Below, piece by piece: positions 1 to 23,878 of a stretch of DNA of 28,008 nucleotides. Made by a program: the position numbers and the translations under genes. The DNA is taken from the IMG/VR virus record IMGVR_UViG_3300017971_000661, positions 1 through 28,008 of that record; one strand, written 5' to 3'. The notes below the pieces were generated by a model that worked only from the letters and a program-made list of their open reading frames with translations, was not told where the DNA came from and searched no databases. Every line of letters begins with the position of its first letter. The first letter of the stretch is position 1. Origin of the DNA: a virus.

Positions 1-2180
1 TCGTACTTGAAAACTGGAAGCGTGAATTTTCCATGTATTCAAGAGTAACGCCAAGGGATATTGTAGTTCTAGTTGGTAGTACCAAGAAAAGAATTGAAAA
101 AATAGAAGAGAGAAAAGGTAGACCTACTATATTTATTCTTAACTATGATGTAATGAATAACGTAGAAATTCTTTATGCTCTACTAAAGCACAGAATTGAA
201 ATATTAGTGTGCGATGAATGTTTCCCAGGAGATACTGAAATCCTCACTGATAAAGGGTTTATTAGATTCGACCAATTAAAAAAGGGTACGCCAGTTGCGC
301 AGTATAGCGGTGAGACCGAGGAAATATCATTTGTTGTCCCAGTAAAATACATTAAGAAAAAAGCTACTGAAGGTCTTTTAAAAATAGAAAGTAAGAAGAT
401 GTCTTTAGTAGCTACTCCAGGGCACGATTTGATATACAATTTTAGAGGAGAAGTTCTCAAGGAAAAATTCAAAGATTTAAAACAAAACTCAAATATAAAA
501 ATCCCTGTTGCAGGTAAAGCAGTGGGTAGAGAAAGTTCTTTAACGAAATACGAAAAGCTTATGATAGCTCTGCAAGCCGATGGGTATATTCCCCCAAGTG
601 GAGATAGAATACAGTTTAGTTTCTGTAAAGATAGGAAAATTAATGAACTACTCAGCCTGTGTAAGGCTATGGGTATCGAATGTAAAGAACTAAATGATAG
701 ACCAGGGAGAAGAAGGTTCTCTGTACCTTGTCTTAAGGAATTTCAGACTAAGAAGATATACGATGTTATTAAATTAGATGAAATATCTTTTTTTAAGGCA
801 AGAGAAATTATCGAGTATATGGTTCTGTGGGATGGATATAAATCAAGCGAGAAAACTTATTACTATTCAAGTGCAGACAAGCTAGCAACAGAGTTCTACC
901 AAGCAGTTTGTATTTTAGCTGGATACAAATCAAATATGACAGTGCAAAAAGATGAGAGGAAAGATTCTTATTCTGATATCTATAGACTTTTTATATCGAA
1001 AACATCATCTCATATCACTTACCAAAATGTAGAGGTAGAGAAAAATAAATTTCAGGGTTATGTATATTGTGTATCCGTCCCCTACGGAAACATAGTTACC
1101 AGAAGAAATGGAAAGCCGATAATCACTGGCAATTGTCATATACTAAAAAATAATACATCTAAACGTGCCAAGGGAGTCTTTACTATTGCTTCTAACGAGA
1201 ATTGCAAGCACAGGTACTTACTCTCTGGCACACCTATTCTTAATAACGCAATGGATTTATTCATGCAGTATAAAGTAATGGACGGATACCTAGAAAAGGA
1301 GTCCACATTTGGGACTAACTTTTTCTGGTTCAGGAATACTTTCTTTGAAGATAGGAACGCAGCATGGTCCGGCCAGAAGAATCATTTCCCAGACTGGCAA
1401 CCAAGAGCTGCTACCTATGATGAGATGAACAAAAGACTTAATGAAAAAATGATGGTTGTTAAAAAAGAAGAGGTATTAAAAGATCTTCCACCACTGGTGA
1501 TCGAGAATAAATACCCTGAACTTTCGCCAGAACAAAAGAAAGCATACAAAGAATTAAAAGATGAGTTCGTTACCTATCTAAAAGAATTAGATGAGAGTGG
1601 GCAACCAAAGGCAGTAGTCGCCAAGCTAGCAATCACTAAAGCCTTGCGCCTTCAACAAGTTGTTACAGGGTTTGTTAAAACAGAAGACGGCGAAGAGATT
1701 GAGTTTAAGAAAGTACCTAGACTTGATGCTTTAAAGGAACTGCTTTCAGAGATTGCGCCAAGGAATAAGGTTATTGTATGGGCCATATTTAAAAAGAACT
1801 ATGAGCAGATAGGAAGAGTGTGTAAGGAGTTGGGCCTTGATTATGTTGAACTACATGGTGGGACCAAGGATCGCCAGGGGGCTGTAGATAAGTTTAATAA
1901 CGAAGCAGGGTGCAGGGTATTAATAGGGCATCCTGGAGCAGGGGGCATTGGAATTAATCTCGTGTCTTCCAACTGTTACATCAGGTACTCTAGAAGTTTT
2001 AAACTTGGAGATGATATACAGAGTGAGGCTAGGAATCACAGGAAAGGCTCCGAGGTACACGACAAGATTACAGGAATAAACTTAACTACGCTTGGTACGA
2101 TAGATGAATTGGTAGCAGAAGCCCTTGATAACAAGCAAAATATTTCAGATAAGATATTGAATTGGAAGGATAGGTTATGA
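1..2180 (+). CDS. SNF2-type DNA helicase, intein-containing, 5' partial
   Basis: ATP-dependent helicase or translocase of the SNF2 branch of superfamily 2, probably acting in phage DNA replication or recombination. The frame stays open to the left edge (in-frame codons from position 3), so the Met at 33 is probably internal. The residues just before it (LENWKREF) look like the SNF2 motif Ia region, and motif I must lie outside the window. Numbering from Met33: motif II is D61-E62 joined after splicing to C368-H369 (DECH), motif III is LSGTPILNN, motif V is GIGINL, and motif VI is the QSEARNHRKGS stretch followed by a typical SNF2 C-terminus. Residues 63-367 are an intein, described separately. 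The helicase assignment is firm; the exact cellular role is inferred from the neighbouring polymerase and nuclease genes. Confidence 0.93.
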   Translation, partial: VLENWKREFSMYSRVTPRDIVVLVGSTKKRIEKIEERKGRPTIFILNYDVMNNVEILYALLKHRIEILVCDECFPGDTEILTDKGFIRFDQLKKGTPVAQYSGETEEISFVVPVKYIKKKATEGLLKIESKKMSLVATPGHDLIYNFRGEVLKEKFKDLKQNSNIKIPVAGKAVGRESSLTKYEKLMIALQADGYIPPSGDRIQFSFCKDRKINELLSLCKAMGIECKELNDRPGRRRFSVPCLKEFQTKKIYDVIKLDEISFFKAREIIEYMVLWDGYKSSEKTYYYSSADKLATEFYQAVCILAGYKSNMTVQKDERKDSYSDIYRLFISKTSSHITYQNVEVEKNKFQGYVYCVSVPYGNIVTRRNGKPIITGNCHILKNNTSKRAKGVFTIASNENCKHRYLLSGTPILNNAMDLFMQYKVMDGYLEKESTFGTNFFWFRNTFFEDRNAAWSGQKNHFPDWQPRAATYDEMNKRLNEKMMVVKKEEVLKDLPPLVIENKYPELSPEQKKAYKELKDEFVTYLKELDESGQPKAVVAKLAITKALRLQQVVTGFVKTEDGEEIEFKKVPRLDALKELLSEIAPRNKVIVWAIFKKNYEQIGRVCKELGLDYVELHGGTKDRQGAVDKFNNEAGCRVLIGHPGAGGIGINLVSSNCYIRYSRSFKLGDDIQSEARNHRKGSEVHDKITGINLTTLGTIDELVAEALDNKQNISDKILNWKDRL
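219..1133 (+). other. Intein (Hint domain plus LAGLIDADG endonuclease) inside the helicase
   Basis: A self-splicing protein element of 305 residues (host residues 63-367). It starts with block A, CFPGDTEILT, whose Cys63 is the splicing nucleophile. Block B carries T128-P-G-H131 (TxxH). Block F is near VYCVSVPYGN and ends PIITGN, followed by the +1 nucleophile Cys368. The penultimate residue is Gly366 instead of the usual His. The centre holds two LAGLIDADG-like helices, LMIALQADGYI (Asp183) and EYMVLWDGYK (Asp267), each followed by DOD-endonuclease-like sequence, so a homing endonuclease is present and may be active. The insertion point is between Glu and Cys of the helicase DECH box. Boundaries are set by the conserved end residues and are confident; endonuclease activity is inference. 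Confidence 0.93.
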
Positions 2181-4101: not shown

Positions 4102-4344
4102 ATGACTACAACAGATGAACAGGTAAAGAAAAACCTTGAGCCACCTACTAAACCTAAATTTGGTATGGAAGAAATCAAGAAAACTCTACCAAAGATTGCC
4201 ACGTTTCATAGTGAATTATCTGAAATGGAACTAAACCTTCCAGCAGATCAAAGAGCCAATGAGTTATCGGTAGCAATCGAAAAGCTTGCAAGTGCCGTAA
4301 CATTATTAACTAAGTTTCACAACGACAACAGGAGAAGAAAATGA
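4102..4344 (+). CDS. Hypothetical small protein
   Basis: An 80-residue protein preceded by TTGGAGGAG. Residues 20-75 look like two or three amphipathic helices (MEEIKKTLPKIATFHSELSE and ELSVAIEKLASAVTLLTKF), and the C-terminus is basic (NDNRRRK). The stop overlaps the ATG of the H1-like gene (ATGA), so the two are translationally coupled and may work together. The family is not recognised. Confidence 0.7.
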   Translation: MTTTDEQVKKNLEPPTKPKFGMEEIKKTLPKIATFHSELSEMELNLPADQRANELSVAIEKLASAVTLLTKFHNDNRRRK

Positions 4345-4619
4345 GCGATACAAAAACATTATACGTAAGAGGCGTTGATACAGAAGTAATCAACCACGTT
4401 ACAAACCATCACTTGATCAAAGGTTTTAAGAGCCGAGGCGAGTTTGTAAATACTTTGCTTAAGGCTGGACTACAGGCTTATAGAAGTTCAGTGAAAAAGA
4501 CTACTAAAAAGGTAGCAAAAAAGGCCACTAAAACTACCAAAAAGGTAGCTAAAAAGGCTAAAAAAGCCACTAAAAAGGCTGCTAAAACTACTAAAAAGGC
4601 CACTAAAAAGGCTAAATAA
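4341..4619 (+). CDS. Ribbon-helix-helix protein with histone H1-like lysine tail
   Basis: A 92-residue two-part protein. Residues 3-48 (a TLYVRGVD strand followed by two helices ending in FVNTLLKAGLQAY) have the pattern of a CopG/Arc-type ribbon-helix-helix DNA-binding domain. Residues 50-92 are almost only Lys, Ala and Thr in KKATKK/KKVAKK repeats, like the C-terminal tail of histone H1 and of bacterial H1-like proteins. The likely role is sequence-directed or general DNA binding and condensation in the infected cell. The start has GGAGAAG upstream and overlaps the previous stop; the stop TAA overlaps the ATG of the exonuclease gene. The domain assignment rests on pattern, not on alignment. 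Confidence 0.8.
   Translation: MSDTKTLYVRGVDTEVINHVTNHHLIKGFKSRGEFVNTLLKAGLQAYRSSVKKTTKKVAKKATKTTKKVAKKAKKATKKAAKTTKKATKKAK
4491..4617 (+). repeat. Degenerate lysine-codon repeat encoding the H1-like tail
   Basis: About 125 bp of imperfect tandem units around CTAAAAAGG(C/T) with short spacers encode the K/A/T-rich tail. The repeat structure makes the tail prone to length change by slippage. The opposite strand gives a spurious hydrophobic frame. Confidence 0.8.
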
Positions 4620-5248
4620 TGGTAGTAACTAAAGATAACATGCGCCAAGTAATCGAACACCTTCAATGCCAGACAAATATTGGTATTGATACAGAAGGAT
4701 ATGGCACAGAATTCGACGATAGATTGTTTGCTGTATCCTTCGCTACCGATTCATATAAGTTTTATTTGAACTTATATGATGGCCCTGATTATCTAGGGAA
4801 CCACGCGCCAGATAAATATGTAATGCCCTACGAATCTCTGAAAGAGTTCTCGCCTGTTTGGGATAATCACAATATCCACTGGTTTATCCACAATGCTTCA
4901 CATGATCTCCAGAAATTAGAATATGAAGGTGTAAAGCTTGCTGGCACTGTAGTTTGCACCATGATCTCAGAGAGAATACTTACCAATAACCTTGGTCCCA
5001 AAGACTACTCACTGGCACATTGTTCCCTGAGACGTGGCTGGTATAAGATTGATGAAGTTGAAAAGTGTATCACTGAAAATAAATTATATACCATGGTCCA
5101 AGTGCCAGGTAAGAAAAAGAAAATAAAGCGCAAGCACTTTGAGAAAGTTCCTTTTATATTGCTGGCTGAGTACGCTGAAAAAGATGCTGAGTTACATTTA
5201 AAGATAGGGTTGAGCCAGAGGAAAAAGGTTTATGAAAGCAGTCTATGA
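4619..5248 (+). CDS. Family A DNA polymerase, 3'-5' exonuclease subunit (split gene)
   Basis: The proofreading exonuclease part of a PolA-type DNA polymerase, made as a separate 209-residue protein. ExoI is D24-T-E26 (GIDTEG), ExoII is HNASHD (N92, D96) and ExoIII is Y185-AEK-D189, so all catalytic acids are present. It stops just after the linker that normally leads into the polymerase domain (the QRKKVYE region). The reading frame ends at 5248, while the polymerase begins at 5232 in the +1 frame. The start overlaps the preceding stop (TAATG). The two proteins probably associate to form a complete polymerase. Confidence 0.9.
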   Translation: MVVTKDNMRQVIEHLQCQTNIGIDTEGYGTEFDDRLFAVSFATDSYKFYLNLYDGPDYLGNHAPDKYVMPYESLKEFSPVWDNHNIHWFIHNASHDLQKLEYEGVKLAGTVVCTMISERILTNNLGPKDYSLAHCSLRRGWYKIDEVEKCITENKLYTMVQVPGKKKKIKRKHFEKVPFILLAEYAEKDAELHLKIGLSQRKKVYESSL

Positions 5249-6410
5249 TAATGAAATAAAACTTACAAAAGCCTGCAATGCCATGAAGGTTAGGGGCATT
5301 AAACTTAACTACGACTACACAGTTAAAGCAATGGAGTATGATCTTGGGGAACTGCAAAAAGAAAAAGAAAATTTTGAGAAGGTCACCGGAAGAACATTTA
5401 AGGACTCACCAAAGTTATTTAGAGAAGTATTTGATGAAGCAGGGGAGACGTACCCAAGGACCGAAAAAGGAAACCCCTCGTTCAAAAGAGAAGCCCTTGA
5501 AGAAATTAACACACCGACGGCGACTTGTATCAATAAAATAAGGAAGATAGAAAAGAAAATATCCTCATTCTATACAACATTCCTATACCTGGCAGACTCC
5601 AATAATATAATACACGCAAGCGCAAACTCTGGTGGAACTGTCACTGGCAGATTCTCCTACAAAGAACCAAATCTTCAGCAGCTTTCCAAGGAAGATAAAG
5701 AAAACGATGCTGGTAAACCCTTTTATATACGCGGCTGCTTTGAACCAAGGCCCGATCACTTCTACTGCGCGATAGATTACCAGGCTCAAGAGTACAGACT
5801 GCTAGTTGATTACGCTGGAGAAAAGGGAGTTATTGATGCTGTTATGGCAGGGGAAGACGTTCACCAAACAGTTGCGGATATGCTTGGAGTTTCAAGGAAG
5901 ATTGCTAAGAACTGTTCCTTCGCTCAACTTTATGGAGCTGGTATCCAAAAGCTTGCGGACATGATTGGTTGTAGCTATGAAGAGGCTAAGCATTTGCGCT
6001 CGTTATATATGGCACGACTTCCAAAGGTTAAGAAGTTTATCCAAGACGTAATGTACGTTGCAGAGAACCGAGGTTATATTAAAAACAGATACGGAAGAGT
6101 CCTTAGATTCCAGAGAGGGGAAGAATACAAAGCTGTTAACCATTTGATTCAAGGGACTGCGGCAGATACATTAAAGTTTTCTTTAGCCAAGATTTACGAG
6201 CAGAATAAACTAGATTATTTCCCAGTCACCTGCCTCATTCATGACGAGATAGTTTTAGAACTAAAGGAAGAACACACTGGAGTTATTGATAGTGTAAGAG
6301 ATATTATGTCTAAGACCTATGAGTCTTTTGATAAAGATTTGATCTTAGAGACTTCTGCGGAAGTATCTAGAAAATCTATGTCTGTTTGGGATATGCAAGA
6401 GTATGTCTGA
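5232..6410 (+). CDS. Family A DNA polymerase, polymerase subunit (split gene)
   Basis: A template-directed DNA polymerase for genome replication, 392 residues, corresponding to the palm, fingers and thumb of PolA. Motif A is D182-YQAQE. Motif B has R222, K226, F230, Y234 and G235 in the spacing of the O-helix. QGTAAD is conserved, and motif C is H337-D338-E339. F230 aligns with E. coli Pol I Phe762. The N-terminal residues (VYDNEIKLTKACNAM then KVRGIKLN) continue what the exonuclease gene lacks, so the two are halves of one ancestral gene. ATG 5232 has GAGGA about 9 nt upstream, inside the exonuclease gene, which suggests coupled re-initiation. A +1 frameshift is an alternative. Confidence 0.93.
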   Translation: MKAVYDNEIKLTKACNAMKVRGIKLNYDYTVKAMEYDLGELQKEKENFEKVTGRTFKDSPKLFREVFDEAGETYPRTEKGNPSFKREALEEINTPTATCINKIRKIEKKISSFYTTFLYLADSNNIIHASANSGGTVTGRFSYKEPNLQQLSKEDKENDAGKPFYIRGCFEPRPDHFYCAIDYQAQEYRLLVDYAGEKGVIDAVMAGEDVHQTVADMLGVSRKIAKNCSFAQLYGAGIQKLADMIGCSYEEAKHLRSLYMARLPKVKKFIQDVMYVAENRGYIKNRYGRVLRFQRGEEYKAVNHLIQGTAADTLKFSLAKIYEQNKLDYFPVTCLIHDEIVLELKEEHTGVIDSVRDIMSKTYESFDKDLILETSAEVSRKSMSVWDMQEYV

Positions 6411-8136: not shown

Positions 8137-8523
8137 AGAGAAGGCCTGGGATCGGCTGGGAGGAGCTGCGTCTCCCTTACCGCGGCCATGGATCCGTCGT
8201 TATCTCTGCTCGAGACCGAATCCCAGGTCCTAGTGGCTGGATTCTCTGACTGGACTCTGCTTTATCTATGTGACGCTTGGTTACTGCTTGCTACTATATT
8301 CGATAGGCTTAACAGTAATGAAGACAACATAACATTCCTTGGCCAAGTGATAGTAGCCTTGGAACATCAACCAACTTTAATTGGCAAGTGGTTTATCAGG
8401 AATATAATCAGCATTAACCAGCAAAGAAAAAAGCTTAACAAGTATTGGGGTGGCTGGAGAAACAAAAGTTTCATGGTTCAACCTTACATTCAAAAACTCA
8501 TTAAGCTTCAAGTCGGTGCTTAG
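8107..8523 (+). CDS. Orphan plus-strand ORF convergent with the endolysin gene
   Basis: A 138-codon frame with no family I recognise. The last 90 residues have ordinary-looking phage codon use and composition, with a hydrophobic stretch (LLYLCDAWLLLATIF) and a basic end (RKKLNKYWGGWRNKSF). An open frame this long is unlikely by chance in AT-rich DNA. The first 45 codons lie in an unusually GC-rich, palindrome-rich segment. Translation signals are weak: AAGGAG is 19 nt from ATG 8107, and ATG 8188 has no visible ribosome site. The stop overlaps the endolysin stop region by 4 nt. It may be a late-added early gene, or a chance frame across a structured RNA. Confidence 0.45.
   Translation: MRPKLIHLNKREGLGSAGRSCVSLTAAMDPSLSLLETESQVLVAGFSDWTLLYLCDAWLLLATIFDRLNSNEDNITFLGQVIVALEHQPTLIGKWFIRNIISINQQRKKLNKYWGGWRNKSFMVQPYIQKLIKLQVGA
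8142..8229. other. GC-rich structured island with clustered palindromic hexamers
   Basis: CCTGGGAT plus CGG (near 8145-8155) pairs with CCG plus ATCCCAGG (8216-8228), giving an 11-bp stem with one bulge. Inside is a GGGAG/CTCCC hairpin (8158-8176). The interval between carries CCGCGG (8180), CCATGG (8186), GGATCC (8190) and CTCGAG (8209) within 35 bp, with AGGCCT at 8142. The island is clearly more GC-rich than the flanking DNA. It could be an RNA domain on either strand. Confidence 0.55.
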
Positions 8524-9095
8524 AACGGTTTAAGGAAGCCTCTGACTAACATGCTTCCTGTGCCTTTAATGTTTCTCTTCACCAGGTAAACACCGCCACC
8601 GTCTCTTACAACGTGACCATCAACAACACCTTTTTCAGTGTTACCTTCAAGTGTCCACATCTCGTCACCATCTGTGGCAAATACAATTCCAGTGTGACCT
8701 GAATTAGTCTTACCCTTTCTCCAGATAATGACAGCGCCGGGTAAAGGATAGAACCTAATCCTTTGTTCCTGGTCCGTTTTATTCCAGCAAGTTTGGACAT
8801 GTTCAGTTGCAAAAACTGGAGACACAATCTTAAACCTATTCTCAACGTAGGCAATCAGAGTCTGAACAAGGCTCATGCACCAAGGCTCAGATACAGCACC
8901 ACCAATAGTCTCTTGGATAAGTTCAACGAACTCTCCTCTATTGTTACCGCCTTCCTCTCTTATTCCTACGCAAGCTTGCGCTGCACAGACAAGAAGTAAA
9001 CGCGCGTCCCTATGAACTATTGCGTGTTGGGCAACTCCATTGCTATGAAGCTTGCTATCAATCCAATTATACATTTTCTTTTCTATTTTTCTCAC
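8520..9095 (-). CDS. CHAP-type endolysin (cysteine peptidase/amidase)
   Basis: A 191-residue peptidoglycan hydrolase of the NlpC/P60-CHAP superfamily. The catalytic Cys is in EPWCMSLVQ and the His is in SGHTGIVFA, followed by the typical LEGNT segment. It probably cuts stem-peptide bonds of the host wall at lysis. No signal peptide is present, so release needs a holin. The start is GTG at 9095, overlapping the preceding stop (GTGA), with a modest AAGGGA upstream. It is the last gene of the late operon. Confidence 0.85.
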   Translation of the reverse strand: MRKIEKKMYNWIDSKLHSNGVAQHAIVHRDARLLLVCAAQACVGIREEGGNNRGEFVELIQETIGGAVSEPWCMSLVQTLIAYVENRFKIVSPVFATEHVQTCWNKTDQEQRIRFYPLPGAVIIWRKGKTNSGHTGIVFATDGDEMWTLEGNTEKGVVDGHVVRDGGGVYLVKRNIKGTGSMLVRGFLKPF

Positions 9096-9394
9096 TTACC
9101 GCAATCCCTTTTCAGCTTATTGTAACGCATAACCAACTCTTCAAAGTCTTCAGTAGTCGTGCCGATCATACCTTTTTTGTGTGACTCAGTTAAGGTCATA
9201 GTCTTCTCACAGACTTCCTTACCTTCAACTTCAATAGGAACACACCATTGAAACCTATACTCTGGAGTTATCTCTAAGTACCAGAAATCAAAGTCTTTCT
9301 CTTGCCTATCGCATGAACTGGCACCAAGGCTAAATATCGCCAAAGCGACCAATAAGATTACGTGCCGCTTTTCTAGCTTTCTGAACATCTTCAT
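9092..9394 (-). CDS. Lipoprotein-like protein, possible outer-membrane spanin
   Basis: A 100-residue protein with a basic start, a hydrophobic segment (VILLVALAIF) and a lipobox-like ASSC before Asp, so export and lipidation at Cys28 are likely, although Ala at -3 is not ideal. The rest is soluble with a Cys pair (WCVP and KEVCEK). Its ATG, with an AGAGGA site, lies 65 nt inside the end of the preceding gene in another frame. That embedded layout is typical of Rz/Rz1 spanin pairs. With the endolysin next to it, an o-spanin role is the best guess. A plain phage lipoprotein is the alternative. Confidence 0.65.
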   Translation of the reverse strand: MKMFRKLEKRHVILLVALAIFSLGASSCDRQEKDFDFWYLEITPEYRFQWCVPIEVEGKEVCEKTMTLTESHKKGMIGTTTEDFEELVMRYNKLKRDCGK

Positions 9395-9590
9395 CGGTTA
9401 TTTCCTCTGCCTTAATAATTCTATCGGCTATGACTTCATTTCCTTTCTTGAACTCTTTCGCAGCTTCAGTTGTTTTCTCGTTGTCTTTATCTTCTGCATG
9501 CTTGTTCTTAATCCAAATATAAAACTTTTCTAGTCCCCACACCAAGGCGCTCGAAAGCACCTTGGATAGGACTACTGAAAGCGCACCCAT
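9330..9590 (-). CDS. Small membrane/coiled-coil protein, possible inner spanin or holin
   Basis: An 86-residue protein with an N-terminal hydrophobic or amphipathic stretch (VVLSKVLSSALVWGLEKFYIWI) followed by a long charged helix suited to a coiled coil. One N-terminal membrane anchor plus a periplasmic coiled coil is the plan of inner-membrane spanins. The next gene starts inside its 3' end, as Rz1 does in Rz. Its start overlaps the preceding stop (TAATG). A holin role cannot be excluded. Confidence 0.6.
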   Translation of the reverse strand: MGALSVVLSKVLSSALVWGLEKFYIWIKNKHAEDKDNEKTTEAAKEFKKGNEVIADRIIKAEEITDEDVQKARKAARNLIGRFGDI

Positions 9591-9793
9591 TACATTAATT
9601 CCTTGGCTACACCCTTCCAGTCAAGATTTTCTCTAGCCGCAGCCACAATCTTAACAAGAGCGTCATCAACAGTGTTGTCAGACTTTGCAGCTAGATCTTC
9701 TAGTGCATCAATAACATCAATCTCAGCGTGTACTTTGATGATGCCGTTCTCTACTTTTACTTCAGCCATTACAGCTTTCTTTTCTTCAGACAT
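9590..9793 (-). CDS. Hypothetical small protein in the lysis cassette
   Basis: A 67-residue acidic protein with beta-rich first half (AEVKVENGIIKVHAEID) and helical second half. There is no membrane segment or recognised motif. The GGGGGACATATG context gives a usable ribosome site. It sits between two membrane-protein candidates of the lysis region. It might modulate holin timing, but that is only positional inference. Confidence 0.65.
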   Translation of the reverse strand: MSEEKKAVMAEVKVENGIIKVHAEIDVIDALEDLAAKSDNTVDDALVKIVAAARENLDWKGVAKELM

Positions 9794-9802
9794 ATGTCCC
9801 CC

Positions 9803-9991
9803 TTATATTTGTTTGTGCTTAAGCACTTCCATTGCAAATTGAATTAATAACGTGACTACTATGCTTGCGGCTCCTGCGCCGCCTATTATTTGCCACTTAA
9901 AGGCAATCAGTGTATCCATCTTTTTATCAATAGCTGAAAGCCTTTCGTTAGTATGCTTTATAAAATAGTCCACTAAATCTTTATCTGCCAT
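9803..9991 (-). CDS. Small single-span membrane protein, holin candidate
   Basis: A 62-residue protein: residues 1-32 are a charged helix (LVDYFIKHTNERLSAIDKKM), and residues about 33-56 are one membrane span (IIGGAGAASIVVTLLIQF). The tail is short and basic. This order (cytoplasmic coiled coil, then one C-terminal span) resembles XhlA-like haemolysin and small holin accessory proteins. With the endolysin downstream and no better holin in view, it is the main holin candidate. Confidence 0.65.
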   Translation of the reverse strand: MADKDLVDYFIKHTNERLSAIDKKMDTLIAFKWQIIGGAGAASIVVTLLIQFAMEVLKHKQI

Positions 9992-9992
9992 A

Positions 9993-12326
9993 TTACCACT
10001 CCGTTGTTTCCACTAAAGGTTCAATTTCTTTTAATTGCGCCCACGTCTCATCCTTGGACGAATTGCCATTAATAACAGAACTACCGCCAACACTCGCAGA
10101 CACAAAGGTGAGAGTTGTTGTTGTCGCTTGAAATACCGCAGATGTATGTCGAAGATCGGCTGCCCCGTTAAAAGATAAAGGTATAATTTGCCTAGCCACT
10201 TTTGAGCCATCATGCTCAATATTTATATCCACGTTGTCTGTGGTTGCCGCCGTTAGAGCGGCCCTACCATGTAAGTCAACCTCATACCACTGACCAACAA
10301 CTAAGTTTGAAAAGGTTAAATCACTCATAGTTGTATTTGTAGTTATATCTGCCGTTAAATATTTTATTTGGGTTTTCTTCGTCCCTCTATACTCACTATG
10401 CTTTGAAGTGTCTTGAACACTGGCTATAGATAGGTAATGATTTATAGAGTTAAATAAAGTAAAGCCTGTATCACTTCTAATCCCGACTACTTGATCTTTC
10501 TCTAAGTATTTCTCTGCATGAAAAGTTTTTATAGTGGTTGCTGTTGGATTGTTAGATACAGGTATATCTATTGTTCCATCAATATAAAGATACATAGTTG
10601 CGGCTTGGCTCGCGGTAGTCCCCACCGCTCCTGTAAATACATACTTGCCATCAGCAGGGACAGTAAACTGGGAACCACTCCACGCACCTAGTTCGTCACT
10701 TACTTCAGTAAAATCAAGATTGGTAGTACTGGCTGTGATTGATGTCCCGCCGTTTCCTGAGCCGCGCACATCAACATTCTTATAATCAACCGCAGCACTA
10801 GAAAATAAAGCCCCTGACTTCCAGCCTTCTATTGGTACTGTAAATTTAAAACTTACATAATCCCCAGAGACAAAAGAAAAGGGACTTGTATTTGTTACTA
10901 CAGATGCCCCGTCTGCTAGCACTCTTACTGTGTTACCTGGTTGATAAAAGAATACTTGCCCGTGTTGTCTATTTCCCGCTGTGCCAGAGTCGAATAGAAA
11001 AGCAGCACCTATAGAAGGTCTATCATTAGATTGACTTATCTTTGATTCATCGACTGTCTCATCTAATGTTAAATCAAGAACTGTAGTACTTGCTGGTGTC
11101 CCCGTTAATTGGACCGTAACTTCATACTCTGCCGAGTCACCTACCCTTCTTTTTTTCGCCGATACTGTGCTGTTCGTCCAGCTATCTGTTACCGTGGCAG
11201 TCTCCCACTCACTTCCAATAAACCCAGGAACTAGTTCGTCTGGCGCAAGCTTTGTTCTATCAACGTAAACGTCATAAGCTGTGGCATTGGTACTCGCCAC
11301 GTGAAAGATAAACCTTAAGTTCGTGTCAGAACTTGTGGCATTTAATAAACATTTATAATCAGAACCGTCATCGGCTTTCAGTAATTCATTTGTTGGTGGA
11401 CCTGTTCCAATAACTGTCGTTCCAACACATTGATGTATCTCATTTGAGCCTATCAAATAATACCAAATAGTAACGTCACCACTGGCATAATTGGTACTGG
11501 TTTCATAACTAAATGAAGCGACCATTGTATTAGGTCCGACTTTTTCCAACCTGTAAAAGTTATCTGAAGCAATGGCAAAGCCTTCACCTTGAGCATCATT
11601 GGCTGACTTTGCAATCTTATAACTGGCGTCACCTGATAGTTGAACTGAAGTCTCACTTGATACCGTTAAGTAGTCAACCGTTCCACCTGTACCATCCACA
11701 GGGTTCGCAGCCCCGTCGTCATAAGTAGTTACGTTTGAAGTGTCATCTGCTTCAAAGTCTGGAAAGTAAGTGATACCACCAAGACCGGAGCCACCGCCAG
11801 CCCCTATTGCTGTTTCTGTTCCAGAACTATTAAGCACATACAATGTGTCATCGTTCTTTGCATAAACTTTTACGTTGCCAGAGGAAGGATTACTTGGTGT
11901 CGTCTCATGGCTTAAAGTCATTGGATCTGTTAGTATTAAACCATCAAAAGTAGGCGTATCAGTTGTCACTAGACTTTGGTCTAGTACACCTAAATATCCC
12001 CACTGTGTGTTGGAGATTGTCACCGAATCAATGTTTTCAATTTGATCTGCTTCAGCACTTGTAATGTCACCAAGAATAGAATCAAGGCTATCTAAAATAA
12101 CACCGTCCGCTGCAACATCTCTACCATCTATGGTCCCAGTTGTAGTTGTGTTTCCAGTAATTGCTAAGTCACTTGTAGGCGTTAACGCTATATTACCGCT
12201 TGTAGAACTTATTGTGTTGCCATTTATATTTATGTTATCTACCTGTAGTTCTGGCAGTTGAGATACACCCCAAGCCGCCACACTGGTAAACAGTACTATT
12301 AATATGATATGTATTGCCCGTCTCAT
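9993..12326 (-). CDS. Large tail or adhesion protein with signal peptide and C1q-like domain
   Basis: A 777-residue protein, probably part of the tail-fibre system. Residues 1-20 are a classical signal peptide (basic start, IIHILIVLF-like core, AWG cleavage region). The start is fixed by GGAGG 5 nt upstream and by a TAATG overlap. Residues 35-130 carry the low-complexity T/G/D pattern common in fibres (TGTIDGRDVAADG). A beta-sandwich lies at about 375-505 and includes FTVPIEGW. Residues about 540-640 fit a C1q/TNF-like jelly roll (GSQFTVPADGKYVFTG ... YLEKDQVVGI). The C-terminal domain is unknown. A cleavable export signal is odd for a virion part. It may be a host-surface or lipid-face protein instead of a virion protein. 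Confidence 0.75.
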   Translation of the reverse strand: MRRAIHIILIVLFTSVAAWGVSQLPELQVDNININGNTISSTSGNIALTPTSDLAITGNTTTTGTIDGRDVAADGVILDSLDSILGDITSAEADQIENIDSVTISNTQWGYLGVLDQSLVTTDTPTFDGLILTDPMTLSHETTPSNPSSGNVKVYAKNDDTLYVLNSSGTETAIGAGGGSGLGGITYFPDFEADDTSNVTTYDDGAANPVDGTGGTVDYLTVSSETSVQLSGDASYKIAKSANDAQGEGFAIASDNFYRLEKVGPNTMVASFSYETSTNYASGDVTIWYYLIGSNEIHQCVGTTVIGTGPPTNELLKADDGSDYKCLLNATSSDTNLRFIFHVASTNATAYDVYVDRTKLAPDELVPGFIGSEWETATVTDSWTNSTVSAKKRRVGDSAEYEVTVQLTGTPASTTVLDLTLDETVDESKISQSNDRPSIGAAFLFDSGTAGNRQHGQVFFYQPGNTVRVLADGASVVTNTSPFSFVSGDYVSFKFTVPIEGWKSGALFSSAAVDYKNVDVRGSGNGGTSITASTTNLDFTEVSDELGAWSGSQFTVPADGKYVFTGAVGTTASQAATMYLYIDGTIDIPVSNNPTATTIKTFHAEKYLEKDQVVGIRSDTGFTLFNSINHYLSIASVQDTSKHSEYRGTKKTQIKYLTADITTNTTMSDLTFSNLVVGQWYEVDLHGRAALTAATTDNVDINIEHDGSKVARQIIPLSFNGAADLRHTSAVFQATTTTLTFVSASVGGSSVINGNSSKDETWAQLKEIEPLVETTEW

Positions 12327-13219
12327 TATGCCTCCAAAACCATTCTTTTAAATTTAATCGTACCTGAAAAACCAGTCCCACCAAGAGTACCTAAAGCAAG
12401 CTTAACTTGTCCAGCATCAATCGTGAAATCTGCCTGGAAAATGTCACCCTCAAATAAACTCTTGTGTACCGAGTATGCACTTCCATTGTAATGACCTACC
12501 ACATGGCCTGTTAAAAACTTAGTGCCAGCAGTTGATGTAACCTTCACTTCTACAAACCACCTTGCACTTGTTTCAGTTGAACTATCCATCGTCATACCAG
12601 TTACATTGGTAGCTGATTGACCATCGGTTAAAGTATCCGATTCTTTGTCCCCGTACCCTGCACCAATTTCCACATCCTCAACTTCTTCCAGTAATTCCGC
12701 TGGAGTCCAGAACTTCATTCCGTCAGTTCCGTCAAATCCCCAAATACCATTCTCAGGTATGGTTACAGGTAAAGTCATATTGGCTTCACTCTTTTGTTCC
12801 GTGATAGAAAGCCTTGGAACCCTGGTTAAGATCTCATTCAACTGCTGAATCATCGCAATCGCTCTATCGTACGCAAGTTCTAGGGCCGCTGGGCTATAGT
12901 TGCCAGCATTTGTAAGATCAAGAGGCTGGGTTAAAGGTAGCTCCCTAATCACAATAACCTTATCCGTGCTTGCAGGTGCGGTATTAAACTCCACGTCCGT
13001 GTGGAACGAGGAGGCGTCCGGTGCCCCTGTTAAAGTATAGTCTTGAAGTGCGCCTTCTGTTTGAAGTGCCTCAGTGATTGCAGTAGGAGTTGACTCGTCC
13101 CTGATGTAAACCTTTACTTCGGCTGAATCATCTACAACATTGGCGTGAGGGATAGCAAATGTAGTATTTGCACCGTCGCCAACATAAGTAGCTTTAACTG
13201 TTAAATTACTTATAGACAT
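12326..13219 (-). CDS. Tail fibre protein, T7-fibre N-terminal-domain type
   Basis: A 297-residue protein that should attach to the tail tube and hold the distal fibre. The first 120 residues fit the T7 gp17 N-terminal connector pattern (YVGDGANTTFAIPH ... VKVYIRDE ... DKVIVIRELPLTQP). Next come a helical linker (ALELAYDRAIAMIQQLNEIL) and a short C-terminal beta domain (200-297). It is shorter than T7 gp17, as in phages whose receptor-binding tip is on a second protein, here possibly the 777-residue product encoded immediately downstream. Confidence 0.87.
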   Translation of the reverse strand: MSISNLTVKATYVGDGANTTFAIPHANVVDDSAEVKVYIRDESTPTAITEALQTEGALQDYTLTGAPDASSFHTDVEFNTAPASTDKVIVIRELPLTQPLDLTNAGNYSPAALELAYDRAIAMIQQLNEILTRVPRLSITEQKSEANMTLPVTIPENGIWGFDGTDGMKFWTPAELLEEVEDVEIGAGYGDKESDTLTDGQSATNVTGMTMDSSTETSARWFVEVKVTSTAGTKFLTGHVVGHYNGSAYSVHKSLFEGDIFQADFTIDAGQVKLALGTLGGTGFSGTIKFKRMVLEA

Positions 13220-13222
13220 TTA

Positions 13223-16200
13223 CTATCTCCCTTGAACTTTAAGTCTAAATTTACGTTCCATTCTCTTAAATTCTTCCTCAACTCCCTCGATCTCAGACAT
13301 CATCTTTTTCTTCGCAAGACTTCTATACTGCTTACCTACTTGGTATATCATTGCTTTTCTTGCAAGATCAGTAGGAGCGTTTTTGTATGCAAAGCTATCT
13401 ATTAATTTAGATAAAGATTGCTTAAGAGTAGGTCCACCAAGGCCGATTCCAGCACTTAATTTAACTAGTTTATGGTACTGTTTAGCATCTAATTCATACT
13501 TAAATACACCCTCTTGGGCCTTAGAAGTAATCCCTGTACTACCTACAACCATACCGAAGTTTACAATTCGATCTGGCATTGAAAGCAGTTCTCTAAAAGG
13601 TTCTGCTGCATCTGTAAATTCATCTGGTGCCAGCCTATAAAGTTCTTTATAAACAGGGTCCATGTTCTCATTAGTTAGATCATGTCTAAAAAATGGTAGC
13701 GCGTGTTCAACCTTAACGCCAGGAGGATAAGCTACCTCATCACCAAGTACGTTTAGTAATGGTGGCATATCTTTACCTAGACCTATTGTATCTAAGGCTT
13801 TATTGAAAACCTCGTCCCAGGCTTTCATAATACCCTTGGCCTTTGATTTAGTGTCACGTTTTATAGGATCAGATGCTACTGTACCAGTTTTTGTAGCTTC
13901 TTTAACTAACCCACCCATAGGGATAAAACCAGTTAAACTTAAAGGTACGTTGCCAGGCTTAGGGTCAGATAAGAACCTTGCAAGATCACCAAAGTTATTT
14001 AATGGTCCTTCAGGTATCATTAAATCTTTAACTAAAATTGCAGCCGCTCCTACTAACTCTTCATGGTCTGTGAAGTTGTCGTCTCTTACATAACCTGAAA
14101 TCTCCGCAAGATCAGCGCCTATTCCAAGTAGAGTTCCCAAAGGATCTAACCTGTCATACTTAACTGGCTTATCTCGACCTGGGATATTTAATACGTATTC
14201 ACCGTACCTAGAATCTCCAGTTAATTTCTTTTTAAACTTTCTTGAAGCAGCATTCCCACCAGTCATGTGACCTTGGTGAGTTAAAAAGGCCGCAGCTCCT
14301 AGTACCGAAGTACCCATTATTGTCTTGGAGATTGCTTCAGCCCTTGCCGCACCACCAGACGCAAATCCTGCTCTAATCTTAGGGCTAAGTAAGTTAATTC
14401 CAGGTACTCTTTGTACCGAGAAGTCCGCAAGGTTAGTTGCTGTTCTTACGAAAGGAACTGTTACGTTTACCACAGGTATTCTAGATAAACCCTTTTCAAA
14501 GTAATTAAGCACTTCACCAACATTTAAGTCATCAGTTCCTATAATAGGTACTTCACTTGCTCTAGCTCCAAATGCTGCTCTACTTGCAGCGCCTTCAACT
14601 GTATTAATTAACTCTGGCGTAGGGTTAGCAATAAGCTTTGACATATGTTGAGAAAACTCTTCAGTACCCTCTTTCAAACCTGCTTCTACAGCATCCCTAT
14701 AAACCAACTGGTTCATTGTAGATCGTTTAGCCACAGTCCTTGAAAAAGCATCCACCGCTTGAAGTCTACCCTGCCCACTTATTAAGTTACCTGTCGTATG
14801 AACTACTTTATTCCAAGCAGAACCCGTCTCTCCGGCTAAACCTAAACTCTCCATAGTGTCAGTAAATACTCTCTTAGTGTCAGTAAATCTTTGCTTAGTA
14901 ATATCTGTAGGTAACTTTGAGTGAACAAAGAAGTCTTTTGTATTTGTTAAACCTTCGATAAATGAAGTTGGTATTGCACGAGCTGCTGAAACTACTTCAC
15001 CAACGCTTGCGCCTTTTATGAAAGGTGATATCATACCCTGTATTGCCAGTTCTCCAGATCTTACAACACCGTATGATGCGTTACCTACCATTGCTGTTTT
15101 AGTAGTACCAAGACCTGCAATTAAGTTTGATAAGTAATAACCTTGGAATTTCTTAGATAATGTATCAAGTCTACCTTGCCCCATTGCTCTAATCGCGTTC
15201 CGTAAGTCAGCAGGTTTTTTTAATTTCCTAATCTTATCCATCTCTTTCACAAGATCAACAGCGTTATCTTTCCCCACCACTTTCATATATTGGTTTAAAT
15301 ACTCTCTTCTTAAGTCAGAGAGTTCCATTGTGTCAGTGACTTTAGCGATGTTCAAGGCTCTACCAATTTCAGAGAAAGTAGAGTTCCTACCCATCATTGC
15401 AACCTGAGCTTCCTGCATTTTAAGTACAGCCGCTTGCAGGTTTATGTCGTCACCATCAAAGTTCTTAATGTTTTCCATGAAGTCTACAACTTCATTCACC
15501 TTAGCTCTAGTGAAAATGTCTACGGCTCTAATCTCTTCAGCATTTAAAACTTCACCTGGAGTATGTGACCTTTGTAGAACTTCATTAAATTTCTTTTTAT
15601 TCGCCAGTATCCCAACTGCACGTAATGTAGTTTCTTCCTGCGGTATTTCACCACGTTTTGCAAGAGCTGTTATCTTCTTGATCTCAGCGTGTTTAGAAGT
15701 TTCCAGGAAAGCTGCCTCTAACTCTTCTAAAGAATTAGCTCCTTGTATTGTCTCCAAGTCTTTTGCATTAAAGTCCGAAGGCTCATACAAAGCTTTAAGA
15801 ACTTCATCTTCCTCTGGAGTAACTGGTTTAGCTTCTACCTTTGGTTTAGCCGTTTCCTTTGAAGGTATAGCGTCACCAACAGCACTTTCTTCAACCGCAG
15901 GAATACCAGTCTTTTGAGCAGCTTTTAGCTTACGCCCTTTTCTAACCATATTAAAAGACTTAGCAACAGCAGTTCCAAGTCCTGCCAGTCCTGCATCAAC
16001 CAATAAACTCTCTACAGAGTTTTTAACCCTAGACTCAAAAGCCTCATCGTCTTCATCAGAAAGTAACCAGCTTGGCACTAGCGGTGAAAGCATAGGCACT
16101 TCATTGGCGAAGTCTGCCACACGTTTCTCATCAGGGTCCATTAAGACACCGTTAATGGCAGCAGAACCAGCTAAAGCTTTACTTGCTTTGATAGCCTTAG

Positions 16201-16645
16201 AACCACCTGTAACTATCTTTGAAAGACCTGCATAAGGCATAACATAACTAACAACACCACGTACCACGTTGTCTACAGGGTTAGCACTTGGAGGAATAAT
16301 CTTCTCCGCAAAAGTTGTAGCCTTACCAGGCTCAAAAACATCACCTTCGCCAATTCCCATTTCAGCCAGCCAATTCTCTCCCCAGTCTAAAATATCGTGA
16401 GTTGTGTTTATTAAGTCTTGGCCTATGTCCAAAACTCCACCTGCGGCTTGCTTCACAGTCTCAGTACTTACTTCACCTTCCTGCGCTCTAACATCTGCTT
16501 GCATTACATCTAGAAAGTTCTGGCCTTCAGATTCTCTTTCTTGCCTGACCTGTGATTCAGTCTTCACTTCTGGAGCTGTAGTAACATCTCCTGTGTCAGC
16601 TTCATTGGCTAGTCTTAGTAACTCTTGATCTGTAACATCAGCCAT
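13223..16645 (-). CDS. Large internal virion / DNA ejection protein
   Basis: A 1140-residue protein in the slot of T7 gp16, expected inside the capsid and injected to build the channel for DNA entry. It is alanine-rich and mainly helical with charged coiled-coil segments, and there are several hydrophobic patches in the second half (for example MGTSVLGAAAFLTHQG). I see no lytic transglycosylase signature of the kind found at the N-terminus of T7 gp16. Assignment is by size, order (tubular B, 172, 534, 1140, fibre) and composition, not by a catalytic motif. The start overlaps the previous stop (TAATGG). Confidence 0.8.
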   Translation of the reverse strand: MADVTDQELLRLANEADTGDVTTAPEVKTESQVRQERESEGQNFLDVMQADVRAQEGEVSTETVKQAAGGVLDIGQDLINTTHDILDWGENWLAEMGIGEGDVFEPGKATTFAEKIIPPSANPVDNVVRGVVSYVMPYAGLSKIVTGGSKAIKASKALAGSAAINGVLMDPDEKRVADFANEVPMLSPLVPSWLLSDEDDEAFESRVKNSVESLLVDAGLAGLGTAVAKSFNMVRKGRKLKAAQKTGIPAVEESAVGDAIPSKETAKPKVEAKPVTPEEDEVLKALYEPSDFNAKDLETIQGANSLEELEAAFLETSKHAEIKKITALAKRGEIPQEETTLRAVGILANKKKFNEVLQRSHTPGEVLNAEEIRAVDIFTRAKVNEVVDFMENIKNFDGDDINLQAAVLKMQEAQVAMMGRNSTFSEIGRALNIAKVTDTMELSDLRREYLNQYMKVVGKDNAVDLVKEMDKIRKLKKPADLRNAIRAMGQGRLDTLSKKFQGYYLSNLIAGLGTTKTAMVGNASYGVVRSGELAIQGMISPFIKGASVGEVVSAARAIPTSFIEGLTNTKDFFVHSKLPTDITKQRFTDTKRVFTDTMESLGLAGETGSAWNKVVHTTGNLISGQGRLQAVDAFSRTVAKRSTMNQLVYRDAVEAGLKEGTEEFSQHMSKLIANPTPELINTVEGAASRAAFGARASEVPIIGTDDLNVGEVLNYFEKGLSRIPVVNVTVPFVRTATNLADFSVQRVPGINLLSPKIRAGFASGGAARAEAISKTIMGTSVLGAAAFLTHQGHMTGGNAASRKFKKKLTGDSRYGEYVLNIPGRDKPVKYDRLDPLGTLLGIGADLAEISGYVRDDNFTDHEELVGAAAILVKDLMIPEGPLNNFGDLARFLSDPKPGNVPLSLTGFIPMGGLVKEATKTGTVASDPIKRDTKSKAKGIMKAWDEVFNKALDTIGLGKDMPPLLNVLGDEVAYPPGVKVEHALPFFRHDLTNENMDPVYKELYRLAPDEFTDAAEPFRELLSMPDRIVNFGMVVGSTGITSKAQEGVFKYELDAKQYHKLVKLSAGIGLGGPTLKQSLSKLIDSFAYKNAPTDLARKAMIYQVGKQYRSLAKKKMMSEIEGVEEEFKRMERKFRLKVQGR

Positions 16646-18249
16646 TATTTACCTTCCTCTACCTTATCTAATCGAATAAGTTCCTCTAGGGATTTCTTCT
16701 CGTTTTCTCTTCTAATAAACTCAGGGATAGCTTTAAGAATATCTCTAGCTCTGTTCTTATCGTCCCTTGATTTTAACTTACCGCCCTTAATATCGTCTAC
16801 GATCTTTCTTTTGATTAACTCTACCTTTTGAGCATCGTCTTGAGCATCCAAAGGAATATGAGGAATAATTACCTTTGGTGTTAAACCAGAAGCAATCAAA
16901 GCTTTTCGCATAGCCTTTGTAGGACGCATACCCTTGTCGATATTAACTGCGTAAAGTTCTCTAACTCCAGCTACTCTGGCTAAGTTCTTACCCTTATAAA
17001 AAGCACCAGTTATATCAAATCCATCAGGCGTAACCGTCGCATTAAGTAAAGACTCAGCAGCCTTCTTATCAATCGCAAAAGACTTATCACTTGTCGATTT
17101 CTTAGAATTAGCTCTAAGCCTATTAAGGAGAGTTACCGCATCTCTTGGGTCAAGTTCCCTATTACCAATAGCAGCGTTTATATCTGCCATCAGGCTTTTC
17201 ATGTCACGTCCTTTATAAATCCTTTCCTGAAAATCATAAAAGACTTCATCTTGTACTTGCTTGCGCTCAGGATCTTTAAAAGACTTTACTATATTTCTAA
17301 TTTCTTTTGTAGCAAGAGTCGGATTAGCTTGGAATACAGACTGTACCTCTGCTTCAACTTCAGCTATCGTCTGCAAGTCATCGCCAGCTTCAATCAACTT
17401 ATTCATTACAGCACTTGAAAAGTCTTCACGCTGATCTTGCAATGCTTGTTTCTGTTGAGTACGTTCCCTCTGATCTCGTGTGTAATTAATATTAGCAACC
17501 TGTTGTTGCTGATTAATAATGTCTTTCACCAACGATGTTTTTTGCTTGGGGGAAAAGTTATCACTATTCATTACATGTTCAGTAGCACTCTGGTAGTTAC
17601 CCTTTAAGGCATGGCCTTGGGCTATTGCCAAGTCTGCACTTTCATTAAACTCAGATTCTACCTTTGCTCTAGTCTCAGGATCTAAACCTAACGCATCCAC
17701 ATAGTCAGTAAACCTATTCCTAGCTTCATCAATGGAAGATGCTTCTGGGTTAGCCATCATTGTAGTAGTCATCGAGTCCCTAAAGTCCTCAACTCTTTTA
17801 GCTTTATGGGCAGCATCGAAGCCTATCATATTACTATAAACTTTCTTGGTAAACCCGTTTGAAACGTCTAAAGAAATACGTCTAGCCACACGTTTATTTA
17901 AACCGTCGTCCATTCCCTCAATCTGTTCGTTAAAACCGCTTGAGTGTTCTTTGTATAACGCCAGCATATTACTGCCATCGTCTTCAAGTCTCTTGTCTTG
18001 ACGTGCTTTAAACATAGCCTCTTGGTAAACCTGCTCGGCTCTAACTCTAACTTCATGTTCAAATAATTTGTTGTCTACTTTATTTTTCTTTTCAAAGTAG
18101 TTACCCAAGGCTCCAGATAAGTTACCAAGGGCTGCACCTGCTCTAGCTATATTTTCGCCTTCACGTCTTGCAGCTCCAGGACTCTCGCCCTGAACTGGTG
18201 AAGCTTGTGATAATCTTTGACCTTCTCTTCTAGTAGGTATTCTAGCCAT
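16645..18249 (-). CDS. Internal virion protein, gp15-like position
   Basis: A 534-residue hydrophilic, helical protein rich in Arg, Lys, Asp and Gln (QQQQVANINYTRDQRERTQQKQA). There is no membrane segment or enzyme motif. It lies between the small and the large internal virion proteins, as T7 gene 15 does, so a role in the internal core and ejection tube is likely. Its start overlaps the previous stop by 1 nt, suggesting coupled translation and fixed stoichiometry. Confidence 0.8.
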   Translation of the reverse strand: MARIPTRREGQRLSQASPVQGESPGAARREGENIARAGAALGNLSGALGNYFEKKNKVDNKLFEHEVRVRAEQVYQEAMFKARQDKRLEDDGSNMLALYKEHSSGFNEQIEGMDDGLNKRVARRISLDVSNGFTKKVYSNMIGFDAAHKAKRVEDFRDSMTTTMMANPEASSIDEARNRFTDYVDALGLDPETRAKVESEFNESADLAIAQGHALKGNYQSATEHVMNSDNFSPKQKTSLVKDIINQQQQVANINYTRDQRERTQQKQALQDQREDFSSAVMNKLIEAGDDLQTIAEVEAEVQSVFQANPTLATKEIRNIVKSFKDPERKQVQDEVFYDFQERIYKGRDMKSLMADINAAIGNRELDPRDAVTLLNRLRANSKKSTSDKSFAIDKKAAESLLNATVTPDGFDITGAFYKGKNLARVAGVRELYAVNIDKGMRPTKAMRKALIASGLTPKVIIPHIPLDAQDDAQKVELIKRKIVDDIKGGKLKSRDDKNRARDILKAIPEFIRRENEKKSLEELIRLDKVEEGK

Positions 18250-18767
18250 TATAAACCTGCCTTTTTCACCGCGCTGTTGCTTCCACTGAAGAATACATCT
18301 GGACTTTTACTTGAAGCCTCTGGGTTACTTCTTCCGGCTACTGAAGCCCCTACGTTAGCCACTGTTGAAATAACATCGAAGAAGTTACTGCTTCTAGCTC
18401 TATCTGCATTTCTAAGTGACTCATCAGCTTTCATGCCAGCTAATTTTGTACGCAACTTACCTTGCTCTAGGATAGCTCCTTCTTCTTGTCTAACTGATCT
18501 CTTAGTCTCAGTCAATGAACGCAGAATACTTCCAGATAAATCAACGCCAGCTTTTGTGTAAGCACTTACTTGGTCGCCAAAGAAAGCTTCAGACTCCCTC
18601 TGGAAAATATCTAATTCACGTCTAGTTGCAAGCTGTGAAATCTTTTGCTGTTCACGAAAGAACTCAGCGTTTCTTTCGTGAGCCTCTGCTTCAGCTTGGT
18701 TAGCCCTAATCTTTCCTATTATCTGAACACCGCCAGATATTAACATCGCTGCCGTAAACGGGTCCAC
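18249..18767 (-). CDS. Internal virion protein, gp14-like position
   Basis: A 172-residue protein with a short hydrophobic N-terminus (PFTAAMLISGGVQIIGKI), then a long charged coiled coil with A/E/R/Q repeats, and a small glycine/serine-rich end. This is the usual plan for the smallest ejected protein of T7-like phages, which inserts in the outer membrane. The start is GTG at 18767, 6 nt after a strong GGAGG. It follows tubular protein B directly. Confidence 0.8.
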   Translation of the reverse strand: MDPFTAAMLISGGVQIIGKIRANQAEAEAHERNAEFFREQQKISQLATRRELDIFQRESEAFFGDQVSAYTKAGVDLSGSILRSLTETKRSVRQEEGAILEQGKLRTKLAGMKADESLRNADRARSSNFFDVISTVANVGASVAGRSNPEASSKSPDVFFSGSNSAVKKAGL

Positions 18768-18779
18768 TACAAACCTCCA

Positions 18780-21641: not shown

Positions 21642-21643
21642 GT

Positions 21644-22222
21644 CTACGCCCTTATATCAGTCCACTCATTAGCTTCCACTTCTTCTAGTGAATTCTCTTG
21701 AGCGTCGAATGATCTAGCTTCCGCTACCTCTGCTTTATAAAGAGCCATCATGTCTCGCATTAACGCCCTTGATTGCACTAAAGGATACGCAAGATCTGCT
21801 GCAAGCATATACGCAAGCGCTTCTTCAAAGTCAGTTGCAAATAATGTTGTGTCTGTCACATCTTTTATGTAACGAACTTTAACAGAACTAGAGTTACATA
21901 ATAGAACTTTGTTCCCGTCTGTGTTCTGCTCTATTACCCAATTAGAACCTTCTATCAAATCTGTTTCCAGGATTCGTAAAATGTCACTAGGCAAAAGGAA
22001 CTCATTCGTAAAACCAAACGAAGGAGTATTCGCGGTGGCAGCCAGCGACTTCCTAAATATTGCAAAATTCCACAGATGACTTCTGAGTAGTTTCTTTCGT
22101 AACTTGTCGTACTGCTCATTACATAAGCGAGCGGCCTTGGTGTCATCACTCAAGGCCGTAATAGTTTTAGCTCCGATTTTTATAAGAGCCGAGTTGCAAA
22201 TCTCCACAGAACTTGTTGCCAT
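21644..22222 (-). CDS. Tail tubular protein A (gp11-like)
   Basis: A 192-residue gatekeeper/adaptor that joins the portal to the nozzle. It has the typical N-terminus (VEICNSALIKIGAKTI), the helix CNEQYDKLRKKLLRSHLWNF, and a central FLLPSDILRILE segment. The length matches T7 gp11. It lies just upstream of tubular B, as in T7, with an AGGAGG ribosome site. Confidence 0.92.
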   Translation of the reverse strand: MATSSVEICNSALIKIGAKTITALSDDTKAARLCNEQYDKLRKKLLRSHLWNFAIFRKSLAATANTPSFGFTNEFLLPSDILRILETDLIEGSNWVIEQNTDGNKVLLCNSSSVKVRYIKDVTDTTLFATDFEEALAYMLAADLAYPLVQSRALMRDMMALYKAEVAEARSFDAQENSLEEVEANEWTDIRA

Positions 22223-22244
22223 CGGAGCCTCCTATTAAAAAATA

Positions 22245-22736
22245 TTAGTCAAGAATGTAGTACATCTCAACAAAGATTGTTCCATCAGTTGTTGTAGCTT
22301 CTGGAATAGCAATCTGAACATCAACTTCCGCAGCGAACTTCTTACGAAATCCAGCGACAGCGTTAGTCATTGCAGTTCTGCTAATCGCAGCAGCGTTAAC
22401 ATCAAGATCAGCGAAGAATCCGTCGTCGTCAGCAGCTTCTAAAACTGTACCGTTTTCGTCAACTTCTTCAGAGTCAGCCCAACCGATGTCTAAGTCACCA
22501 GTAGTACCAAGGTCGTCACTTGAAGCTAAACATTCAATTACTCTTGCACCTTTTGGTAACTTGAATAATTTTACGATAGCACTTGTTCCTAAAACATCAC
22601 CAGATGGAATTGTGTACTCACCTGAAAGGTAGCGTAAACGTCCATGCTGAAGACTTACATCATTTCTTACTTGTGGTTCAGCAACATAACTATTGTTATA
22701 CTCTGTTCCGTATAAATTTCCTGACAATGTAGCCAT
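22245..22736 (-). CDS. Putative head decoration or minor structural protein
   Basis: A 163-residue soluble protein between the capsid and tubular A. It has an N-terminal arm (NLYGTEYNNSYVAEP), then a beta-rich domain (SAIVKLFKLPKGARVIECLA, DLDIGWAD) ending FVEMYYILD. The order and composition fit a small capsid-associated structural protein. No specific family is proven. The gene has AGGAG 8 nt before its ATG and follows a terminator hairpin, so it is expressed at a different level from the capsid. Confidence 0.7.
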   Translation of the reverse strand: MATLSGNLYGTEYNNSYVAEPQVRNDVSLQHGRLRYLSGEYTIPSGDVLGTSAIVKLFKLPKGARVIECLASSDDLGTTGDLDIGWADSEEVDENGTVLEAADDDGFFADLDVNAAAISRTAMTNAVAGFRKKFAAEVDVQIAIPEATTTDGTIFVEMYYILD

Positions 22737-22781
22737 TTTGAAAATCTCCTATTTAAAATTAAAAATCTAAATTCTAAGGAA

Positions 22782-22801
22782 AGGGCCGAAGCCCTCACCT
22801 A
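22782..22801 (-). terminator. UUCG-tetraloop terminator after the capsid gene
   Basis: On the minus strand AGGGC-TTCG-GCCCT (22795-22782) is a very stable 5-bp stem with a UUCG loop, placed 7 nt after the capsid stop. It is followed by TTTCCTTAG and a T-rich stretch. The U-tract is imperfect, which suggests partial termination, like T7 T-phi after gene 10. Confidence 0.65.
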
Positions 22802-23725: not shown

Positions 23726-23777
23726 TATGTCCTCCAAAATCAAAGTTAATAAAATGTTTGTGGTTTCTCGCCTCGGA

Positions 23778-23838
23778 ATTGTCCCTTGTAGGATTCACGC
23801 TTTTTATAGCCAGGATCTCAGCGACTAAGATTGTCCCT
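23778..23838 (-). repeat. Two copies of AGGGACAAT in the capsid leader
   Basis: AGGGACAAT occurs at 23838-23830 and again at 23786-23778 on the minus strand, 52 bp apart, in the untranslated leader. It could be a site for a phage regulator or polymerase. Two copies are too few to define a motif. Confidence 0.5.
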
Positions 23839-23872: not shown

Positions 23873-23878
23873 CTTTAA

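Follow-up and report, generated by a model that had tools for sequence, protein, structure and literature searches.

A LAGLIDADG intein in motif II of a phage SNF2 helicase, with an occupied and empty allele pair that points to recent homing with co-conversion

Inteins seated in the active sites of enzymes have been described from several systems. The ribonucleotide reductase R2 of Aquifex aeolicus carries a LAGLIDADG-type intein of 346 amino acids, inserted between two active-site residues of the di-iron centre, for which splicing in E. coli has been reported (PMC8772380). In mycobacteriophages, TerL1-e, which sits in a Walker B motif, and HEL, in a HepA-related helicase, are described as active-site insertions in phage ATPases (PMC5050341). 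An intein reported to splice is also carried by Snf2 of Deinococcus radiodurans, an SNF2-family host. The intein presented here resembles all of these, but it lies in a helicase rather than a reductase and is shorter than the Aquifex element, occupies another host gene than the mycobacteriophage inteins, and differs in class from the Deinococcus one, which is reported to belong to class 3.

The window, a virus record of 28,008 bases analysed over its whole length, opens with a frame (3..2180) that is open for 725 amino acids and whose 5' end lies beyond the left contig end. Its product matches SNF2 (PF00176, 1.2e-13) and Helicase_C (PF00271, 1.7e-8) on either side of an insert, and the helicase family profile matches 1z63 at 3e-69. 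The missing beginning is found in a sibling contig of 31,773 bases (IMGVR_UViG_3300028840_001126, hereafter G001), the single close relative returned by the related-locus search, which encodes the helicase without the intein and contributes the gene start and 61 extra N-terminal residues with the Walker A motif GTGKT. With both domains, Walker A and a DExH motif II, the host gene is an SNF2-family helicase, and the 305-residue intein splits its motif II (Walker B) as DE/CH, a slash marking each junction (Table 1). This insertion point, between Glu and the residue that precedes His, had been read correctly in an earlier note made from the window; the numbering given there, D61-E62 and C368-H369, holds if the ATG at 33 is taken as residue 1. 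The gene starts farther upstream, however, and with the N-terminus taken from G001 the site becomes D132-E133/C134-H135. The same note had asked for alignment with intein-free SNF2 helicases. All five homologues aligned run straight across the site with the block absent, as do all of the best 80 of at least 533 viral relatives (matches among at least 600 stretches, near-duplicates left in, a set that favours intein-free genes because it was ranked against an uninterrupted query). The idea that the block is a normal helicase domain was rejected on these grounds.

Table 1. Coordinates of the intein, its host gene and the divergent flanks in the window
Feature	Positions	Strand	Remarks
N-extein, SNF2 helicase	3..218	+	Ends ...ILVCDE, with Asp and Glu of motif II at 213-218; 5' end missing at the contig edge; Walker A encoded in G001, beyond the window
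Upstream divergent tract	104..218	+	12 of 15 differences in 115 bases; bases 1-103 identical to G001
Intein	219..1133	+	915 nt, 305 aa; class 1 type; Cys1 (219-221), T66-P-G-H69, F-block VYC284V, terminal G-N305 (Asn at 1131-1133)
First LAGLIDADG-type motif, KLMIALQADGY	555..587	+	Acid D121 kept by all nine inteins aligned; coordinates derived from the translation
Second LAGLIDADG-type motif, IIEYMVLWDG	807..836	+	Acid D205 kept by all nine inteins aligned; coordinates derived from the translation
C-extein, SNF2 helicase	1134..2177	+	Begins CHILKN, with His of motif II at 1137-1139; has Helicase_C
+1 Cys, TGT	1134..1136	+	Fills the variable position of DExH; G001, the empty sibling, has TCA (Ser)
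Downstream divergent tract	1134..1139	+	3 of 15 differences in 6 bases; bases 1140-1244 (105) identical to G001

Two other loci in the window were noted in passing. A 92-amino-acid protein at 4341-4619 has a lysine-rich tail with KKxTKKxAKK-like repeats, similar to that of histone H1, and had no match in PHROGs. At 4619-6410 the DNA polymerase appears as two overlapping frames of 209 and 392 amino acids that match adjacent parts of phrog_17, and these are either separately encoded parts or the product of a frameshift.

With its junctions, the insert reads ...ILVCDE/CFPGDTEILT ... VYCVSVPYGNIVTRRNGKPIITGN/CHILKN..., and it has the residues on which protein splicing depends, namely a nucleophile at position 1, a block B TxxH, a terminal Asn and a Cys at +1. 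Among the nine inteins of its group that were aligned, Cys1, T66, H69, D121, D205, C284, G304 and N305 are invariant. The two LAGLIDADG motifs retain their catalytic acids, QAD121G and WD205G, as in a homing endonuclease of this family. The insert scores above the cut-off of the intein_Nterm model TIGR01445 (28.9 bits vs 24.5), while Intein_splicing PF14890 is found at E 3e-6 with 27.6 bits, below its curated cut-off of 35.8, and a genome-level search with PF14890 gave no match in the window record. An AlphaFold model of the intein (pLDDT 91.6) aligns end-to-end with TliVMA (Z 23.0, 290 residues, 3.8 A) and PI-PfuI (Z 20.9, 293 residues, 3.3 A), and its top structural matches are solved inteins with a LAGLIDADG endonuclease (Z 20 to 23); the predicted fold is thus HINT with a built-in LAGLIDADG endonuclease. 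By sequence, the intein alone drew only chance matches to ribosomal protein L38 from the PDB, and a profile of nine inteins reached the AceL NrdHF intein at 2.3e-5. The recognition of the insert as an intein, already made in the earlier note, is upheld by these models, by the flanking helicase domains and by a near-identical phage with the empty site.

As to class, the penultimate residue is Gly, not His, and a Cys is present at the F4 position. Class 3 inteins have been defined by the lack of an N-terminal nucleophile together with a Trp-Cys-Thr triplet at B12, F4 and G5 (PMC3196547). Cys284 (F4) and Thr303 (G5) are present here; however, the intein begins with Cys1, block B has no Trp, and the sole Trp, W204, belongs to an endonuclease motif. 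Class 3 was rejected for these reasons, and the intein is filed as class 1.

Outside the helicase, the window contig and G001 differ by 2 mismatches in 19,771 shared bases (window 8238-28008), whereas the helicase overlap, with the intein left out, holds 15 differences in 329 bases (Fisher P 1.6e-25 vs elsewhere). All 15 are confined to 121 bases around the insertion, between window positions 104 and 1139. The substitutions are largely silent (pS 0.44, pN 0.035; about 12 of 15 synonymous, P 1.4e-6 against random), and the tract therefore resembles a functional helicase gene from a diverged lineage rather than sequencing noise. An occupied and an empty allele that diverge solely in the flanks of the insertion are the pattern of homing with co-conversion, a pattern that fits either direction of change, and the tract boundaries are seen over short distances, each identical flank running for about 105 bases and stopping at a contig end. 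Searches of viral contigs returned no donor with the diverged tract, no close relatives of the intein by sequence, and no close relatives of the downstream helicase. A third near-identical contig (G002, locus L231, IMGVR_UViG_3300017963_000774) comes from the same phage, with 5 mismatches in 12,838 bases compared, and it does not type the insertion site because it contains no SNF2 gene. The window contig and G001 both end some 105 bases away from the tract; contig breaks are expected where an assembler meets two alleles, a hint, though not proof, that both alleles are present in the samples. This evidence of mobility had escaped the earlier note because the empty sibling lay outside its view.

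The differences next to the junction bear on the splicing residue itself. In the empty allele motif II is encoded as GAT GAA TCA CAC (DESH), and in the occupied allele as GAT GAA, the intein, then TGT CAT (DECH). The proposal that the +1 nucleophile is also the variable residue of DExH is thereby borne out by natural alleles, Cys when occupied and Ser when empty. Among the best 80 viral relatives this position is Ser in 76, Ala in 2 and Ile in 2, with no Cys, while all 42 of the other complete inteins found after DE (among at least 119 loci) have Cys at +1. Because Ser marks 76 of 80 intein-free relatives and Cys every one of the 42 inteins, the intein is most simply seen as having supplied its own +1 Cys through co-conversion.

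Taken together, these observations make it highly likely that the window holds a mobile class 1 LAGLIDADG intein which recently homed into motif II of this helicase with co-converted flanks, and it very probably records one recent homing event. After translation, the intein would excise itself by means of Cys1, Asn305 and the +1 Cys, joining DE to CH. During co-infection, its endonuclease would cut intein-free helicase genes at the site, and repair from an intein-bearing copy would insert the intein. Its source would have been a diverged helicase allele, from which about 115 bases upstream and 6 bases downstream came along, and the recipient an otherwise near-identical phage. The co-converted flank would have turned DESH into DECH, providing the Cys found at +1 in this intein group. 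We also consider it likely, if with somewhat less assurance, that the contig pair reflects very recent homing in a wild, near-clonal phage population in which the alleles coexist, and that the change from DESH to DECH leaves the spliced enzyme permanently unlike its counterpart in the uninvaded sibling.

The same localised divergence would be expected if the intein allele were the older one and recombination with an intein-free relative had removed the intein from G001 and replaced the tract, and no near outgroup fixes the polarity. Loss is nevertheless unlikely. The Ser at +1 in G001 is the common state among the relatives counted above, exact loss requires an intein-free partner, and the intact-looking endonuclease of the intein would drive gain; the polarity, gain and not loss, is taken from the Ser state of distant relatives. 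Even less probable is an assembly chimera, in which the window contig would combine one phage's intein-bearing helicase with another phage's genome. Both contigs do stop some 105 bases away from the tract, the behaviour of an assembler at a branch point, but identical flanks of 103 and 105 bases beside a tract diverged by 12 percent suggest a mosaic on one molecule, and the frame is intact throughout.

It had also been proposed that the splicing state controls the helicase; as a regulatory switch, the intein would keep the enzyme inactive until a signal allowed splicing. With motif II interrupted, the precursor is very probably inactive, which is a fair inference, and conditional splicing has been reported for other inteins. 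However, the intein is present in one of two near-identical phages and absent from the other, so this helicase does its work without the insert; complete splicing in the natural form has been reported for a phage intein whose final Asn is preceded by Gly (PMC5050341); and no sequence feature in the window points to a signal or to conditional splicing. A regulatory switch is hence the least credible of these explanations, and the claim of control finds no support. Under the preferred explanation of recent homing, the element is most likely a selfish class 1 intein, its splicing unregulated and its spread owed to the cutting of empty alleles.

The suggestion that this exact site merits cataloguing stands only weakly, as insertions after DE recur in viral contigs. 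A census, made by a degenerate-pattern scan for DE followed by a Cys-type intein start, found at least 119 viral loci, a figure that measures recurrence, not frequency. Besides the window, 42 complete inteins were called among them (34 groups at 90% identity), with CH as the extein junction in 30, although the junction finder favoured CH. The 77 uncalled loci are truncated, short N-terminal halves, members of an ALDIYADE group, or unclear. Many flanks look like Walker B sites of ATPases or helicases, and a Pfam scan of 10 of the 42 complete loci found helicase domains in all 10. The DE/CH insertion site is not new, then, and recurs even in two SNF2 helicases, L099 and L126, which carry other inteins at the same position; inteins of several types have repeatedly settled in motif II of phage helicases. 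No published description of this site in a phage SNF2 helicase was found in the literature searched, with subscription journals and InBase lying outside that search.

Further loci of the census are worth recording in their own right. Many viral helicase-like frames of the form VIVDE/C[FL].GDTL... (L023, L025, L030, L042, L051 and others) run for about 102 intein residues before they end, which is what the N-terminal half of a split intein at this position would give. In another group (L013, L017, L027, L037, L044, L045, L060, L067, L088 and L117), the intein start follows ...ALDI..DE in a host that is not plainly a Walker B ATPase and may be portal-like.

The nearest inteins to that of the window are L078/L095 and L091 in IMG/VR, 41% and 37% identical respectively. 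L078 and L091 match it over the full length, at the same motif II place and with the same GN/CH junction, but their DE/CH sites lie in ResIII-type helicases, another family, and they are known here as contigs alone. L099 and L126 share the SNF2 host family and the DE/CH position, and yet their inteins have at most the N-terminal motif in common with it. Phage records matching the intein at E <= 0.01 number 241 of 50,697. In 156 the match covers 80% or more of its length, and identity among the matches listed is at most 32% full-length and 35% partial. Vibrio phages account for 80 matching records; in one of these, Vibrio phage 19E33.1 (L132), an intein of related type sits beside the Walker A stretch of an annotated putative DNA helicase, GEGG/C...GN/TGKS, a junction read from this single record. 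Bacterial genome contigs yielded 14 relatives, among them the Aquifex reductase type. This relative, L219, shares 32% identity across residues 1-305 and ends VYCVSVP...GN/C, and its exteins, DEL/../CH, match the published Aquifex R2 site Glu228-Leu229/Cys230-His231 (PMC8772380).

As a class of element the intein is ordinary, a known kind of insertion in a known kind of site. The new part, and the part worth keeping, is the occupied and empty pair with its sharp co-conversion tract, which gives the likely target sequence before invasion, suggests that the intein carries its own +1 nucleophile, and could serve to measure the cost of the intein and of the Ser-to-Cys scar to a phage helicase. A published counterpart is the haloarchaeal MCM-d site, where invaded alleles are reported always to have Ser at +1 and uninvaded alleles mostly Pro, a change from which the authors infer co-conversion (PMC10643990). 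There the host is an archaeal MCM and the change runs from Pro to Ser, whereas in the window the host is a phage helicase and the change would run from Ser to Cys.
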